Shown piece after piece: positions 5,066-21,163 of a DNA stretch of 44,909 nucleotides. A model generated the notes under the pieces. It did not search any database and had not been told where the DNA came from. It was given only the letters and a program-made list of their open reading frames with translations. A program made the position numbers and the translations under genes. The stretch comes from Candidatus Peribacteria bacterium (GTDB lineage: Bacteria; Patescibacteriota; Gracilibacteria; Peribacterales; Peribacteraceae), in contig SICN01000008.1 of NCBI GenBank assembly GCA_009691405.1, positions 1 through 44,909 of the forward strand, written 5' to 3'. Within the stretch, counting starts at the first letter, position 1, and each line of letters opens with the position of its first letter.

Positions 5066-5100
5066 GACTATCTCATTTTCATTGAGATGGTCGCTTTTTT
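5066..5100 (+). terminator. terminator-like hairpin in the nusA leader
   Basis: A 10-bp stem (5066-5075 with 5083-5092, one G-T pair) with a 7-nt loop is followed by GC and six T residues. It lies between the nusA promoter and the nusA start, so it cannot be the end of the secA unit alone. A second hairpin, GCAGGC/GCCTGC, sits at about 5112-5128. This layout is that of a transcription attenuator. Confidence 0.6.
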
Positions 5101-5149
5101 GGATCTTCCTCGCAGGCAGAAAGCCTGCTCCCGTATTTCCCCCTTCCCT

Positions 5150-6349
5150 ATGCGCGCATCATTCATCGCAGCCATTAACCAGCTCTGTTCCGAAAGAAGT
5201 GTGAAAGCCGATGATGTACTCGAAGCCGTGAGGCAGGCGATTGCAACGGCGTACCGCAAAGATTTCGGCAACAAGGAACAGGAGATCAGAGTCGTGCTTC
5301 GGGAGGATCAGGATATGCCGTCGGTGCTTCTGATTAAGGAGGTGGTCGAGGAAGTGCTGAATGAAAACTTCGAAATCAGCTTGAAAGATGCGCAACGAGT
5401 GAAACCGGACAGCGAAGTCGGTGACGAAATAGAAATCGACGCGACGCCCGTCGGTTACGGTCGCATCGCAGCGCAGGCGGCGAAGCAGGTCATCATCCAG
5501 AAACTGCAGGAATCCGAGAAACAGAGTTTGTTCGCCATGTTCAAAGACCGCGAGAACGAACTTCTCTCCGTGACGGTGACCAAGGTCGAGCCGAACTGGG
5601 TGACGCTCGAAGTCGAGGGCATGGCTGTCTCGCTCCCATGGAAGGAGCAGATCCCGGGCGAGCACTACTACACGGGAAAGCGCATCCGTGTGTACCTCGA
5701 CAAAGTGGAGCTCACCGGCAAGGGTCCGCAACTCCGGATCTCTCGCACGCATCCGAGCCTTGTGAAGAAACTTCTCGAACTCGAGATCCCCGAAATCAGA
5801 AACGGCGACGTGCAGATTATGGCGATTGCCCGCGATGCCGGCATGCGAAGCAAAGTTGCGGTGAAGAGCACGGATCCGAGAATCGATCCGATCGGTGCGT
5901 GCGTCGGTCAGAAAGGTGTGCGCATTCAATCCGTGATGGAGGAGATCAACGGCGAAAGAGTCGATATGATCGAATGGTCGGAGGATCCGATCCGCTTGAT
6001 TTCGACTGCGTTGCAGCCAGCATCGATTTCAGCCGTGATCATCGTGAACGGTGAGCAGCACCTCGATGAGGAGGGTCGCATCGTGAAGAAGCGCGCAGCC
6101 GTGTTCGTCGAGGAAGCACAGCGCCCGATGGCGATTGGCAAGAAGGGCCAGAACATCCGTCTTGCGACTCAGCTCACGAATTTCGAGCTCGACATGTACA
6201 ACTACGAAGAACTTCCCGCCTTCAAAGCAAAACTCGCGGAGTTGAAGGGCGAAGAGGTCGAGGTGGTGATGCTTGCACCCGCTGTGGAAGGCGAGGAAGC
6301 TGCTCCTGCATCAGTGGAAGTTGCACAGGAAGAGAAGAAGGCGGAGTAG
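5150..6349 (+). CDS. nusA: transcription elongation/termination factor NusA
   Basis: 399 residues. NusA binds RNA polymerase and RNA, modulating pausing, intrinsic termination and antitermination. Domain order fits the family: N-terminal polymerase-binding domain beginning MRASFIAAINQLC, an S1 domain (about residues 130-200), then two KH domains with GACVGQKGVRIQ and AIGKKGQNIRLA (both GxxG-type loops). A short acidic/alanine-rich tail follows; the E. coli acidic repeats are absent, as in most bacteria. Start ATG 5150 gives the usual N-terminus; an upstream ATG at 5087 lies in the leader hairpin. No Shine-Dalgarno. RimP, usually upstream of nusA, is absent here. Confidence 0.97.
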   Translation: MRASFIAAINQLCSERSVKADDVLEAVRQAIATAYRKDFGNKEQEIRVVLREDQDMPSVLLIKEVVEEVLNENFEISLKDAQRVKPDSEVGDEIEIDATPVGYGRIAAQAAKQVIIQKLQESEKQSLFAMFKDRENELLSVTVTKVEPNWVTLEVEGMAVSLPWKEQIPGEHYYTGKRIRVYLDKVELTGKGPQLRISRTHPSLVKKLLELEIPEIRNGDVQIMAIARDAGMRSKVAVKSTDPRIDPIGACVGQKGVRIQSVMEEINGERVDMIEWSEDPIRLISTALQPASISAVIIVNGEQHLDEEGRIVKKRAAVFVEEAQRPMAIGKKGQNIRLATQLTNFELDMYNYEELPAFKAKLAELKGEEVEVVMLAPAVEGEEAAPASVEVAQEEKKAE

Positions 6350-6374
6350 GAAACACCTCAATTATTGTTTGTAG

Positions 6375-6399
6375 AGACGTCCCGTGTGGGGCGTCTTTT
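6375..6399 (+). terminator. intrinsic terminator after nusA
   Basis: A 9-bp stem, AGACGTCCC with GGGGCGTCT (one T-G pair), has a GTGT loop and is followed by TTTT. It begins 26 nt after the nusA stop. Confidence 0.8.
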
Positions 6400-6439: not shown

Positions 6440-8704
6440 ATGAAACTTCCGAACCTCCCTTTCCTCATCCTCGACACGGAAACCACCGGTTTTGTCCCAA
6501 AGACACACCGTGTGATGGAGTATGCGTGCGTGGCATTGAAGAACGGGAAGATTGAGATGGAGTACGAACAGCTGCTGTCACTGCCGGAAGGTCATGAAAT
6601 CCCGGGGGTCGTACAGGTGCTCACACAGATTCGTCAGAAGGATCTTCTGGGAAAGCCGACATTCCAGGAGATGCTGCCCACCATCAAAGCGATGCTCACC
6701 CCCGAGACGATCGTCGTCGGGCAGAACGTGAAGTTCGATATCGGTATGCTCAAGGGAGAAGGATGGGACATAAGCGAGCACCCGTGGATCGACACCGCGA
6801 TGCTGGCATCGATCGTGTATCCGGAACTGAAGAGTTATTCGCTCGGGTACATGAGCGAAGCTCTTCATCTCATGCATACGCCGAAACATCGAGCGCTTGG
6901 TGATGTGCGCGCAACGTATCAACTCCTTGAATTGTGTGTCGAGAGACTCCAGAGTTTGCCCGGAAGCGATCTCGATGTCCTCAAAGCTCTCGCCGAGAGA
7001 GGCCCCGAGAGTTACCGAAGACTTTTTGCTTCTCTCACGTCTGTAGCGAAGAAAAAACGTCCGGCATGGCTCTCTCTCAGTAAGCATAGGAGCCCTGATG
7101 CAAGCGACAAATCGATCCCTGCGACAATGTTGAAGGGTCTTACGAAGAATGCGATTGAATTGATGCAAGAATCGCTCTGTCCTTCGACGCTGGAATCGAT
7201 TCTTGCAGGTGCGAAGAAGGGAAGTATGATCGCCGTCAAAAATCTCGATGCCGCCGTGCGCCGAGTCGAGATCCCGGCATCGGTTGTCGTTCTTCCGGAG
7301 CCACAGATGCTGCTTTCGGGCGAGGCAGCGGAGAAATTTCTGGAGCAGAAGAGTTTTACGGCCGATGAAATGACGCTTGCGATGAAGCTGGTTCTTTACA
7401 GTCCGAAACTCAAGATCGATTTGCCGATTCACGGAGAAGAAACCGCCATCTGGAACGCGAAAATCGCCGCAAGCGCAGAAAGCCCAGAGTATCTGGCGCG
7501 CAGAAAAGCACTGAAGAAAGATGTCGTACTCCTTGGGCACCACGAGCTCATTTCAATTGCGAACGGAGAAGAATCCGCGATCCTGAAAGGCGCTCGCATC
7601 GTGATCGATGACGCGTCAATGCTTGAGGATACGGCAACCGGCGCTCTTGGCTGGACATGCTTCGTGCCGACGTTGCGGGCTGCCGCAGCATGTAATGCTG
7701 CGCTGACGAAATGTACGGATCTCATCGAACTCTGGGTCGAGAAGCTCAGAAACGGGATGGATCTCCGGTACATCGCTCCGTCCGATCTCGGCGCACCCGA
7801 GATCGAGCATCTGACGGTGATGATCGAAGGTTTGCTCAAGACCGAACTCCCGCATGCGGCGGAGAAAGCCCTTTCGGATTTGCTCCTGATTTTTCAAGAG
7901 AGGAATCTGGACGGTCGGATCACATGGGTCGAGTCATTCCTCGACGGTAATAAAGCGATCAAATCCGTGCCGGAAAAAATAAACGAAGTGCTCGGACGTA
8001 TTCTCTACGATCAATCTGAGGTCACACTACTGATCCCGCAGGCGGCATGGAAAGAGTGCGGTTCGGTTCTTCCGCTCATGATGAAAACCGTCGACGGTCC
8101 CGTGCCGATGCTTCCGATTCCGGATTTCTCGGTTCTCCTCCCGATCGGGGTCGCTCTCGATGCGTCGATTGTCGAAGCCAAAGGAAAAACGGTCTTGCTG
8201 CTCTCGAGCAAGCGTGCTATCGAGGAGCTCTATCTCAAGCACGCCGAAAAATGCGAGGCGGCAGGGACGACGTTTCTCTGTCAGGGCTTCAGCGGAGGAC
8301 AGAGCCGGATGCAAGCGGAATTTGTTCTCGCGAAAGAGCCTGCAATTCTCGTCACGACTCCGTGGACGTATGAAACCATGGAGTTGCCGAGAGGCACGAT
8401 TGGCAGGCTCGTGCTCCAAACATTGCCGTTCGATCATCCGTCGCACGCGATCTTCAGCCGCAGAGCACTTCGCTATGGCGATCCGTTCTCGGAATATTCG
8501 CTCCCTCGCCTCAAGCATCGCCTCTTCCGGTTGATCCGCACGTTCGTTCGGCACATGAAAGCCGGAAGTTCGTTCATGATTCTCGACGATCGCCTGCGCA
8601 CGAAGCCCTACGGAAAGCGCGTTTCGGAGTATTTGCAGAATCTGGCACCTGCACCAACAGTGCGGCCATCCTTGGCCGCGACGGGGCAGATGAAGCTTCT
8701 CTAA
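6440..8704 (+). CDS. DnaQ-family 3'-5' exonuclease fused to a degenerate DinG-type helicase
   Basis: 754 residues. The N-terminal 170 residues form a DEDDh exonuclease with all catalytic residues visible: D12 and E14 (LDTETTG), D100 (NVKFD), H150 and D155 (HRALGD). The rest matches DinG-type XPD-like helicases of the DnaQ-DinG arrangement, best at the C-terminus (LQTLPFDHPSH, RRALRYGDPF, DDRLRTKPYGKR). The helicase core is eroded: no GxGKT Walker A is found between residues 175 and 390, the DEAH box is IDDAS (389-393), and motif VI keeps RLIR but lost the preceding Q and G. The likely product is an exonuclease with a structural, ATP-inactive helicase part. TATCGT lies 7 nt before the ATG. Confidence 0.85.
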   Translation: MKLPNLPFLILDTETTGFVPKTHRVMEYACVALKNGKIEMEYEQLLSLPEGHEIPGVVQVLTQIRQKDLLGKPTFQEMLPTIKAMLTPETIVVGQNVKFDIGMLKGEGWDISEHPWIDTAMLASIVYPELKSYSLGYMSEALHLMHTPKHRALGDVRATYQLLELCVERLQSLPGSDLDVLKALAERGPESYRRLFASLTSVAKKKRPAWLSLSKHRSPDASDKSIPATMLKGLTKNAIELMQESLCPSTLESILAGAKKGSMIAVKNLDAAVRRVEIPASVVVLPEPQMLLSGEAAEKFLEQKSFTADEMTLAMKLVLYSPKLKIDLPIHGEETAIWNAKIAASAESPEYLARRKALKKDVVLLGHHELISIANGEESAILKGARIVIDDASMLEDTATGALGWTCFVPTLRAAAACNAALTKCTDLIELWVEKLRNGMDLRYIAPSDLGAPEIEHLTVMIEGLLKTELPHAAEKALSDLLLIFQERNLDGRITWVESFLDGNKAIKSVPEKINEVLGRILYDQSEVTLLIPQAAWKECGSVLPLMMKTVDGPVPMLPIPDFSVLLPIGVALDASIVEAKGKTVLLLSSKRAIEELYLKHAEKCEAAGTTFLCQGFSGGQSRMQAEFVLAKEPAILVTTPWTYETMELPRGTIGRLVLQTLPFDHPSHAIFSRRALRYGDPFSEYSLPRLKHRLFRLIRTFVRHMKAGSSFMILDDRLRTKPYGKRVSEYLQNLAPAPTVRPSLAATGQMKLL

Positions 8705-19327: not shown

Positions 19328-19445
19328 GAGATTTGCTCCGATACGTCCACGAATGAACGTATCGAAATAGCTCTTAATAACTAGCGCATCGATTTTTTTT
19401 AGAGGGCGATGCATCCTCTTTATTTTCAAAGAAAATAGTTGTGGA

Positions 19446-19469
19446 CTTCTTTTTCTCTACTACACGATG
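19446..19469 (-). ncRNA. 5' arm of the 16S precursor processing stem
   Basis: Complementary to 17652-17674 over 17 uninterrupted base pairs (CATCGTGTAGTAGAGAA in this arm). Between this arm and the mature 5' end lies another perfect 8-bp hairpin, CGATACGT/ACGTATCG (about 19338-19363). Confidence 0.8.
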
Positions 19470-19567
19470 CTGTGAAGGAGCTGACGCGTGTGAGCGGTCC
19501 GAGCTCCTCTTTCGAAGAGACGTCCTTCAAGCCATTACGAATACATTGGCTTAGTCACAGCCGAGCC

Positions 19568-19596
19568 ATCTTAGGAGTGGCGAAAGGGGGCGTCAA
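19568..19596 (-). promoter_or_regulatory. promoter of the 16S gene
   Basis: TTGACG (19596-19591), a 17-nt spacer and TAAGAT (19573-19568) on the minus strand. The start near 19561 gives a leader of about 235 nt that includes the 5' processing arm. It is only 25 nt from the start of the divergent gene at 19622. Confidence 0.75.
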
Positions 19597-19621
19597 GAGG
19601 GTTCTCTCACTTTCTGTTACC

Positions 19622-21163
19622 ATGTATTTCGTGCCCTCCGAATTGACATTTTTCAAGCGTGCTCTCCCGCATATCGTCGGAGCGCTTTCCCTGTGCCTGA
19701 TCGCGATTCTTCTTTTCAGTCTCCAAAATCCCGTCTCACTCGACGATGGGCTTCGGCACTTCGCAATGGCGAGGCTCATGAGTGAGCAGGGAATTGCAGC
19801 TGCCGATTGGAGCCGTTTCTTTTCACACGGATACTTCGCACATCACACCGTCGATCCGTGGTTCCTCTCGAACGTTGCATTCATACCTTTTCTTCCGCTT
19901 GGTCCGATTCTGGGCTTAAAACTTTTCGCACTGTTTTTAATTCTCCTCCTTCTCGTTGTGTTTCTGTATGCATGCTTCGTCTTTCGTACGCCACCGATCG
20001 TCTCTGCAGTCTCTGTCGGTCTGCTTCTGTTTTTTGATCCATCGTTTTTCTACCGGCTGCTGCTCGGGAGACCGTACGAGCTCATCACCCCTCTTGCGGT
20101 GCTCATCATCATCGCGGCGATTTCGAAGCGACCGTTTCTGATCGGGCTTTCTCTCATGCTTTGCGTTCTTCTGTCTCAGATTTTTATTTTTCCTCTTCTC
20201 ATCGCTTTCACTGCGGTGCTGTGGCGTTTGAGTCTCTGTGAGTGGAAAGAAGCAAGGATGCTTCTCACCTGGGTTTTCCTCGGACTCTTCGCCGGGTTTT
20301 TTCTGCACCCCGATTCCCTGCAGTATGCATTCTATATTCGGGACACATTTCTCAGAATTCCTCTGCTTCCGGGCATCGAGCTCGGGCTTGAAATGCAGTC
20401 GGGATTCCGGCTCGGTTCCCGCCTCCTCGTGATCGTCGGCATCGTGACTCTCCTTCACAGTGTTCTCTTTAAAGAAGGCATCACACTCCGACAGTACGGC
20501 GAATGCGGACTCTCTTTTCTTATATTTCTTACGCTTCTTTTCATTACATTCTTTCTTCTCTGGGCGCGCGCCGTCGATTTTCTTTGGCCGACTCTGATCC
20601 TCCTCCTTACGCTGCTCCTATCTGTGTCTCCGGGGATTTTTTCGAGAACGATGATTGCAATTCTGCCGAAGAAATTGTCCGGGAATCGGCGGATGGGTTT
20701 TTACATCTTACTGCTACTTCTCGCTTCCGTCGTGTTCTCGATGCATCGCACGCTTCGAGCCAGCGACGGAGATCGATCGCTTGAAACATATACGCAGGCA
20801 CTGCGATTTGTCCCCCAGGGTGCCATGGTGCTGAATGTCGATTGGCACTTCTTTATGCCTGCGGTTCTCGTTCGACCAGATCTGAGGTACGCGACCGGCA
20901 TTGATCCTTCCTATACCTATCTCGATTCTCCGAAAGCACTTGGACTTTTCGCCTCACTCACTACGCCGAAGTTTCAGTCGTCTCCAACCGAAGAGGAAGT
21001 GCGTGCGTGGCTCAAAGAAATTCTTGCGCTGTATCCTTCGGACTACCTGGTGTTTTTTCGAGGACGACATGAGACGATCATCACAAAGCTCGAGAAGGAC
21101 TTAAAGATGATCGATGTTTCAGGGAGCAGGGAGGTGGCTGTCTTCAGAGCAAAAGAAACTTGA
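19622..21163 (+). CDS. polytopic membrane protein, GT-C-type glycosyltransferase-like
   Basis: 513 residues. One N-terminal helix is followed by a loop with LDDGLRHFAMARLM, which resembles the first periplasmic loop of GT-C glycosyltransferases, where a DD or DE motif coordinates the polyprenyl-sugar donor. About ten membrane helices fill residues 10-390. A soluble C-terminal domain of about 110 residues (from RASDGDRSLE) follows. Such proteins add sugars from lipid carriers on the outer face of the membrane. Acceptor and sugar cannot be told. ATG 19622 precedes the first helix; codons upstream lie in the 16S promoter region. Its stop codon is part of the rpsF -35 box. Confidence 0.55.
   Translation: MYFVPSELTFFKRALPHIVGALSLCLIAILLFSLQNPVSLDDGLRHFAMARLMSEQGIAAADWSRFFSHGYFAHHTVDPWFLSNVAFIPFLPLGPILGLKLFALFLILLLLVVFLYACFVFRTPPIVSAVSVGLLLFFDPSFFYRLLLGRPYELITPLAVLIIIAAISKRPFLIGLSLMLCVLLSQIFIFPLLIAFTAVLWRLSLCEWKEARMLLTWVFLGLFAGFFLHPDSLQYAFYIRDTFLRIPLLPGIELGLEMQSGFRLGSRLLVIVGIVTLLHSVLFKEGITLRQYGECGLSFLIFLTLLFITFFLLWARAVDFLWPTLILLLTLLLSVSPGIFSRTMIAILPKKLSGNRRMGFYILLLLLASVVFSMHRTLRASDGDRSLETYTQALRFVPQGAMVLNVDWHFFMPAVLVRPDLRYATGIDPSYTYLDSPKALGLFASLTTPKFQSSPTEEEVRAWLKEILALYPSDYLVFFRGRHETIITKLEKDLKMIDVSGSREVAVFRAKET

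Follow-up and report, generated by a model that had tools for sequence, protein, structure and literature searches.

What does the helicase half of a nuclease–helicase fusion do once its motor motifs are gone and its nuclease remains complete? The question is raised by a gene in a 44,909-nt stretch of a Candidatus Peribacteria genome (GenBank contig SICN01000008.1, positions 1 to 44,909; here called the window), a 1.01-Mb draft in 45 contigs with a completeness of 93.7%. A prior, sequence-only reading had placed this gene at 6440-8704, and it is indeed one open frame on the plus strand, encoding 754 amino acids; the start codon is ATG, with an in-frame TTG upstream at 6365. Pfam matches RNase_T at residues 9-163 and Helicase_C_2 at residues 580-734 of the window protein (E-values in Table 1), and the N-terminal helicase domain, i.e., the first RecA domain, gives no Pfam match in it. 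Besides the fusion, the same genome encodes an RNase_T (DnaQ-like) exonuclease of about 204 aa that stands alone, and no second Helicase_C_2 protein. Elsewhere in the window, a 574-aa open frame (19439-21163) has no Pfam match at 1e-4.

The five residues of the DEDDh centre reported before (D12, E14, D100, H150 and D155) are all present, and all five are kept in 88 of the 88 fusion proteins that we aligned. Residue 95 (window 6722-6724) is a Gln (VGQN) that is invariant in the family; S. aureus DinG has at this place His90, which helps strand threading.

The helicase half was said to lack GxGKT, to have IDDAS for the DEAH box and to miss the Q and G of motif VI, each of which we could confirm. 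GxGK[ST] is absent from the P-loop site of the window protein; at motif II, the family consensus is the near-invariant IDDASMLEDTAT. At the motif VI site, ungapped alignment to S. aureus DinG gives R-L-I-R-T-F-V-R as compared to QGxGRLIR in relatives with intact ATPase motifs (which we call live), the Q and both Gs being gone; the family consensus there is PRLxHRLFRLLRTF. The Walker A lysine, the DEAH glutamate and the glutamine and glycines of motif VI are all missing. A profile–profile comparison (hhalign) between live DinG and the helicase half in the family aligns 427 columns with 99.8% probability, which implies that the FeS segment, the Arch-like part and the second RecA-like domain (MD2) persist. 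The FeS segment aligns by profile as a possible short vestige without the cysteine set, and the P-loop end of the first domain (MD1) cannot be aligned to live DinG at all. The former P-loop zone (residues 181-300) is the least conserved inner part of the protein (mean top-residue frequency of 0.49) and has the highest dN/dS among the inner segments. Judged by these motifs, the helicase half of the window protein is dead; we infer that ATP is neither bound nor hydrolysed there any more and that the enzyme would work without it. A GSGK[ST] occurs in two proteins of one genus (L008 and L215) in the linker just past the exonuclease; it is off-site, probably there by chance, and we did not accept it as a P-loop.

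Table 1. Features of the fusion gene and its upstream flank in the window (residue numbers are those of the 754-aa protein).
Feature	Position	Strand	Remarks
nusA, upstream neighbour, same strand	5087..6349	+	Pfam NusA_N and KH_5
Terminator-like hairpin followed by a short T run, between nusA and the exonuclease gene	6373..6398	+	missed by a stricter terminator scan
Predicted helicase-dead ExoDinG fusion gene	6440..8704	+	754 aa, single uninterrupted ORF
DEDDh 3'-5' exonuclease domain	6440..6979	+	residues 1-180; PF00929 9.2e-26
D12	6473-6475	+	DEDDh catalytic residue
E14	6479-6481	+	DEDDh catalytic residue
D100	6737-6739	+	DEDDh catalytic residue
H150	6887-6889	+	DEDDh catalytic residue
D155	6902-6904	+	DEDDh catalytic residue
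Linker and former P-loop zone	6980..7339	+	residues 181-300; without Walker A
Possible FeS-domain vestige, HGEETAIW..ESPEYLARR	7430..7504	+	residues 331-355; cysteine-free; profile-profile alignment to live relatives, sequence pattern
Degenerate motif II, IDDAS for DEAH	7604..7618	+	residues 389-393
Shortened Arch-like region	7670..8119	+	residues 411-560; hhalign to live DinG
MD2 (second RecA-like domain)	8120..8644	+	residues 561-735; PF13307 5.4e-8, above cut-off; live-DinG MD2 profile E 9e-25
F664, F804 equivalent (ssDNA base stacking)	8429..8431	+	aromatic in 76/76 alignable non-live proteins
F683, F823 equivalent (ssDNA stacking)	8486..8488	+	aromatic in 78/78 alignable non-live proteins
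Former motif VI, now Arg-rich	8528..8551	+	residues 697-704; Arg-rich segment HRLFRLIRTF at 693-702
R718, R858 equivalent (polar ssDNA contact)	8591..8593	+	R or K in 69/69 alignable non-live proteins
Y724, Y864 equivalent (ssDNA stacking)	8609..8611	+	aromatic in 67/67 alignable non-live proteins

The loss is shared by the close relatives of the window protein; a conserved P-loop at this place in relatives was what the sequence-only reading had named as refuting it. A protein search in 58 related genomes found the full-length protein throughout the window's family, and none of the 51 readable family proteins (32 full-length and 19 further ones, from more than 35 genera) has a P-loop at its site. 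Of the 57 family genomes, 56 have Helicase_C_2, 55 of them in single copy; in the remaining one (G304), the second match lies in an ORF of different sequence with its own P-loop and DEAH box. The dN/dS of the helicase half, likewise proposed as a check, is about 0.08 and matches the value for the exonuclease half: when the window's genome was compared to two congeners, it ranged between 0.068 and 0.089 for the exonuclease and between 0.078 and 0.086 for the helicase half, rough values since dS is high. The helicase half is under purifying selection and not in decay. In one family member (L032, in genome G016), a single TGA stop, which may be an error or real, leaves frames of 501 and 296 aa. 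In-frame TGA codons in homologues from some relatives of the class, together with genome size and gene content, point to a Gracilibacteria-like class of the Patescibacteria.

What selection maintains is suggested by MD2. In the crystal of S. aureus DinG with ssDNA, MD2 grips seven bases of the strand and the exonuclease domain another four; in MD2, K801, F804, F823, R858 and Y864 hold the DNA, and alanine at any of these five abolishes unwinding (PMC12345164). In the window protein, their counterparts by ungapped alignment are T661, F664, F683, R718 and Y724. Out of 81 non-live proteins, an MD2 profile that we built from live proteins recovers 79; the non-live proteins were aligned to the profile's own columns. 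At four of the five contacts, the residue class is retained in every alignable non-live protein (counts in Table 1), the profile alignment being weak for some distant members. The window's family has lost the K801 contact and mostly carries S, A or T there, although the position is K or R in 30 of 37 other dead proteins. Retention among the non-live proteins is only 10-41% for the equivalents of Q837, G840, R841, G786 and D788 and 10-53% for the motif V/VI residues overall, where E785 and R844 stay at about half owing to the window's family, which keeps both. In the dead set outside the family, contact and ATPase columns, picked from the literature, are fully separated (exact p 0.003 for 4 against 7 columns); F823 was left out of this test because live proteins carry W or F there.

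Going by these alignments, the motif losses are selective: the single-strand contacts are kept across families while motifs V and VI are scrambled. The earlier statement that the C-terminal helicase motifs are well conserved, accordingly, holds for the nucleic acid contact residues but not for motifs V and VI, which are degenerate in the window protein. The argument for structural selection rather than decay stands as to selection, given the dN/dS of about 0.08, but “structural” is too vague a term, since the retained positions are single-strand contacts. The retained aromatics could also partly serve the protein core.

The loss extends far beyond the window's family. We searched TIGR01407 over 240 genomes of the phylum, retrieved the matching regions and aligned 88 fusion proteins; one (L108) is a fragment, leaving 87 usable proteins from about 30 families. 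Seven of the 87 (L035, L036 and L054-L058) keep the ATPase motifs, i.e., P-loop, DEAH and, in proteins whose end is not missing, QGxGRLIR; seven others (L040, L059-L063 and L111) are, by our own classing, graded intermediates; and in 73, the ATPase motifs are lost. Some intermediates carry partly eroded motifs, such as GPGVGR with DEAQ (L059 and L060) or GFDKS with DDFE, which are useful for the order of loss. An independent scan of genome contigs gave matches in other phyla only, among them eight Coriobacteria ExoDinGs, which are all live; viral contigs gave none. On a tree of the exonuclease and MD2, from which the motif V and VI columns were excluded, live and not-live states require three changes, at least two of them forced by well-supported branches; several losses of the P-loop are likely because its regain is implausible. 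The ATPase was, thus, likely lost several times, on a tree with poorly resolved deep branches. As these sequences have it, the loss arose inside the phylum to which the window belongs and which still has ATPase-intact versions. The sequence-only reading had seen the window protein as a plausible further step on a staphylococcal path, S. aureus DinG being an exonuclease without helicase activity; this does not hold, as S. aureus DinG keeps its DEAH box and, contradicting an older report, unwinds DNA (PMC12345164).

Amongst known systems, the closest is ExoDinG (Bacillales, Coriobacteria and others; S. aureus, L. monocytogenes and B. subtilis DinG), which is the same fusion of an N-terminal DEDDh exonuclease with a DinG helicase and shares the MD2 fold and the strand-contact residues; the Bacillales members have no complete FeS cluster (PMC11981726, PMC12345164), as is probably true of the window protein. 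Known ExoDinGs are of about 880-950 aa, as compared to 754 aa for the window protein, and keep the ATPase motifs (as in the Coriobacteria examples), none of which the window protein has. We regard the latter as an ExoDinG variant and not a plain member because it has the DEDDh exonuclease domain and MD2 but lacks the Walker A P-loop in MD1, the DEAH box and the QxxGRxxR of motif VI; with ATPase motifs I, II and VI gone, it does not qualify as an SF2 helicase. It scores 154 bits against TIGR01407 dinG_rel (cut-off 547.7) and 160 against PRK08074 DinG (789), reaching neither.

The helicase superfamily and the nuclease fold of AddB differ from those of the window protein. AddB, which recognises Chi, nevertheless joins a nuclease to an inactive helicase domain, as here (PMC5443536); it acts in complex with an active helicase, AddA, while the window's genome has no second DinG. 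Utp25, a pseudohelicase, kept the helicase fold after its ATPase motifs became dispensable (PMC9539457); unlike the window protein, it is of the eukaryotic DEAD-box type, nuclease-free and part of the SSU processome. In pExoDinG, one half of the fusion is also catalytically dead, yet as a mirror image: the exonuclease is dead and the helicase predicted to be live (PMC11981726), whereas the exonuclease centre of the window protein is complete. A 2025 review distinguishes ten DinG-like subgroups, including pExoDinG with its dead exonuclease, and none with a dead helicase (PMC11981726); in the open-licence literature that we searched, we found no account of a DinG clade with a live exonuclease and a dead helicase.

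We consider that the window protein is probably an ATP-independent 3'-5' exonuclease on an ExoDinG scaffold, whose dead helicase would act as a passive clamp on the single strand. The DEDDh domain would remove nucleotides from 3' ends, while the MD2 groove of the former helicase would passively grip the single strand, much as this groove grips ssDNA in crystals of S. aureus DinG, and so feed its 3' end to the exonuclease. A single-sequence AlphaFold model of the window protein (pLDDT 34.7) was unusable for groove geometry. In Listeria DinG, the DEAH mutant E465A retains a prominent 3'-5' exonuclease activity (PMC12774634).

The natural substrate may be RNA (precursor rRNA, R-loops or nascent transcripts) or DNA ends. 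One version of the clamp reading, not exclusive of it and to which we give somewhat less than an even chance, has the protein act mainly on RNA, as an exoribonuclease for quality control of precursor rRNA and transcripts in place of RNase R. Listeria DinG trims unprocessed rRNA (PMC12774634), B. subtilis DinG removes R-loops (PMC12525004), the upstream neighbour is nusA, and an RNB-domain RNase (RNase R/II) occurs in none of the 57 family genomes. As a specific signal of RNase R replacement, however, the latter is weak: RNB is above cut-off in only 12 of the 240 genomes of the phylum, and RNase_PH-domain proteins of PNPase size are found in 52 of the 57 family genomes. A related enzyme acts in crosslink repair (PMC12345164).

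The helicase half could alternatively be a protein–protein scaffold (e.g., for docking to RNA polymerase/NusA, the ribosome or a polymerase), with nucleic acid contacts being secondary, which we deem unlikely. The near-invariant motif II consensus and the Arg-rich helix HRLFRLLRTF at motif VI suggest a new, lineage-specific role, and the fusion gene follows nusA in the same orientation at 31 of 32 family loci. This linkage may, however, be plain synteny and is weak as functional proof: the gap to nusA varies between 0 and 1192 bases among family loci, a downstream sugar transferase is often conserved too, and other families have different neighbours, such as cdaA/ybbR, a TrmB-type regulator or an SLH protein. 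Moreover, it is the strand contacts that are conserved in every family. Two other families have a diadenylate cyclase gene (DAC domain) upstream of the helicase-dead one (L223, 7705-9741; L227, 2667-3497), and in L223, a YbbR protein gene abuts it. The hairpin (GTA)GAGACG...CGTCTC(TAC) recurs after nusA in several family genomes (window 6373-6398; L004-L008), sometimes followed by T runs; it is possibly a terminator or a repeat element.

That a cryptic, relocated nucleotide site still drives a functional motor, hydrolysing ATP or another nucleotide, seems very improbable. The GKT at 582-584, the only G-K-T of the window protein, is nearly invariant in the family, and the R844 and E785 equivalents are kept there; however, this GKT aligns to the GRT with which the motif IV strand of MD2 begins in live DinG and not to the P-loop, for which reason we rejected it as a relocated one, and the key residues of motifs I, II and VI are gone. 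The missing motifs and the draft state of the genome might finally suggest a decaying pseudogene or misassembled DinG, an explanation refuted by 51 proteins of independent genomes that share the loss, with frames open in nearly all, by purifying selection and by near-universal presence in the family.

The clamp reading may apply widely. We put at about even the chances that the non-live fusions form a large, undescribed clade or grade of helicase-dead ExoDinGs in much of the ultra-small Patescibacteria, in which the ATPase was repeatedly lost, the motor was reused as a processivity clamp, and a core, ATP-free 3'-5' exonuclease, possibly of RNA, remains. Live, intermediate and dead versions can be compared inside one phylum. 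Annotation of such genes as “DinG helicase” is misleading. Evolution would here have separated the halves of a nuclease–helicase fusion naturally, deleting the motor and keeping the grip, by which the ATP-free contribution of the helicase fold becomes testable. For a little-studied bacterial family, the window protein identifies a near-universal predicted exonuclease.
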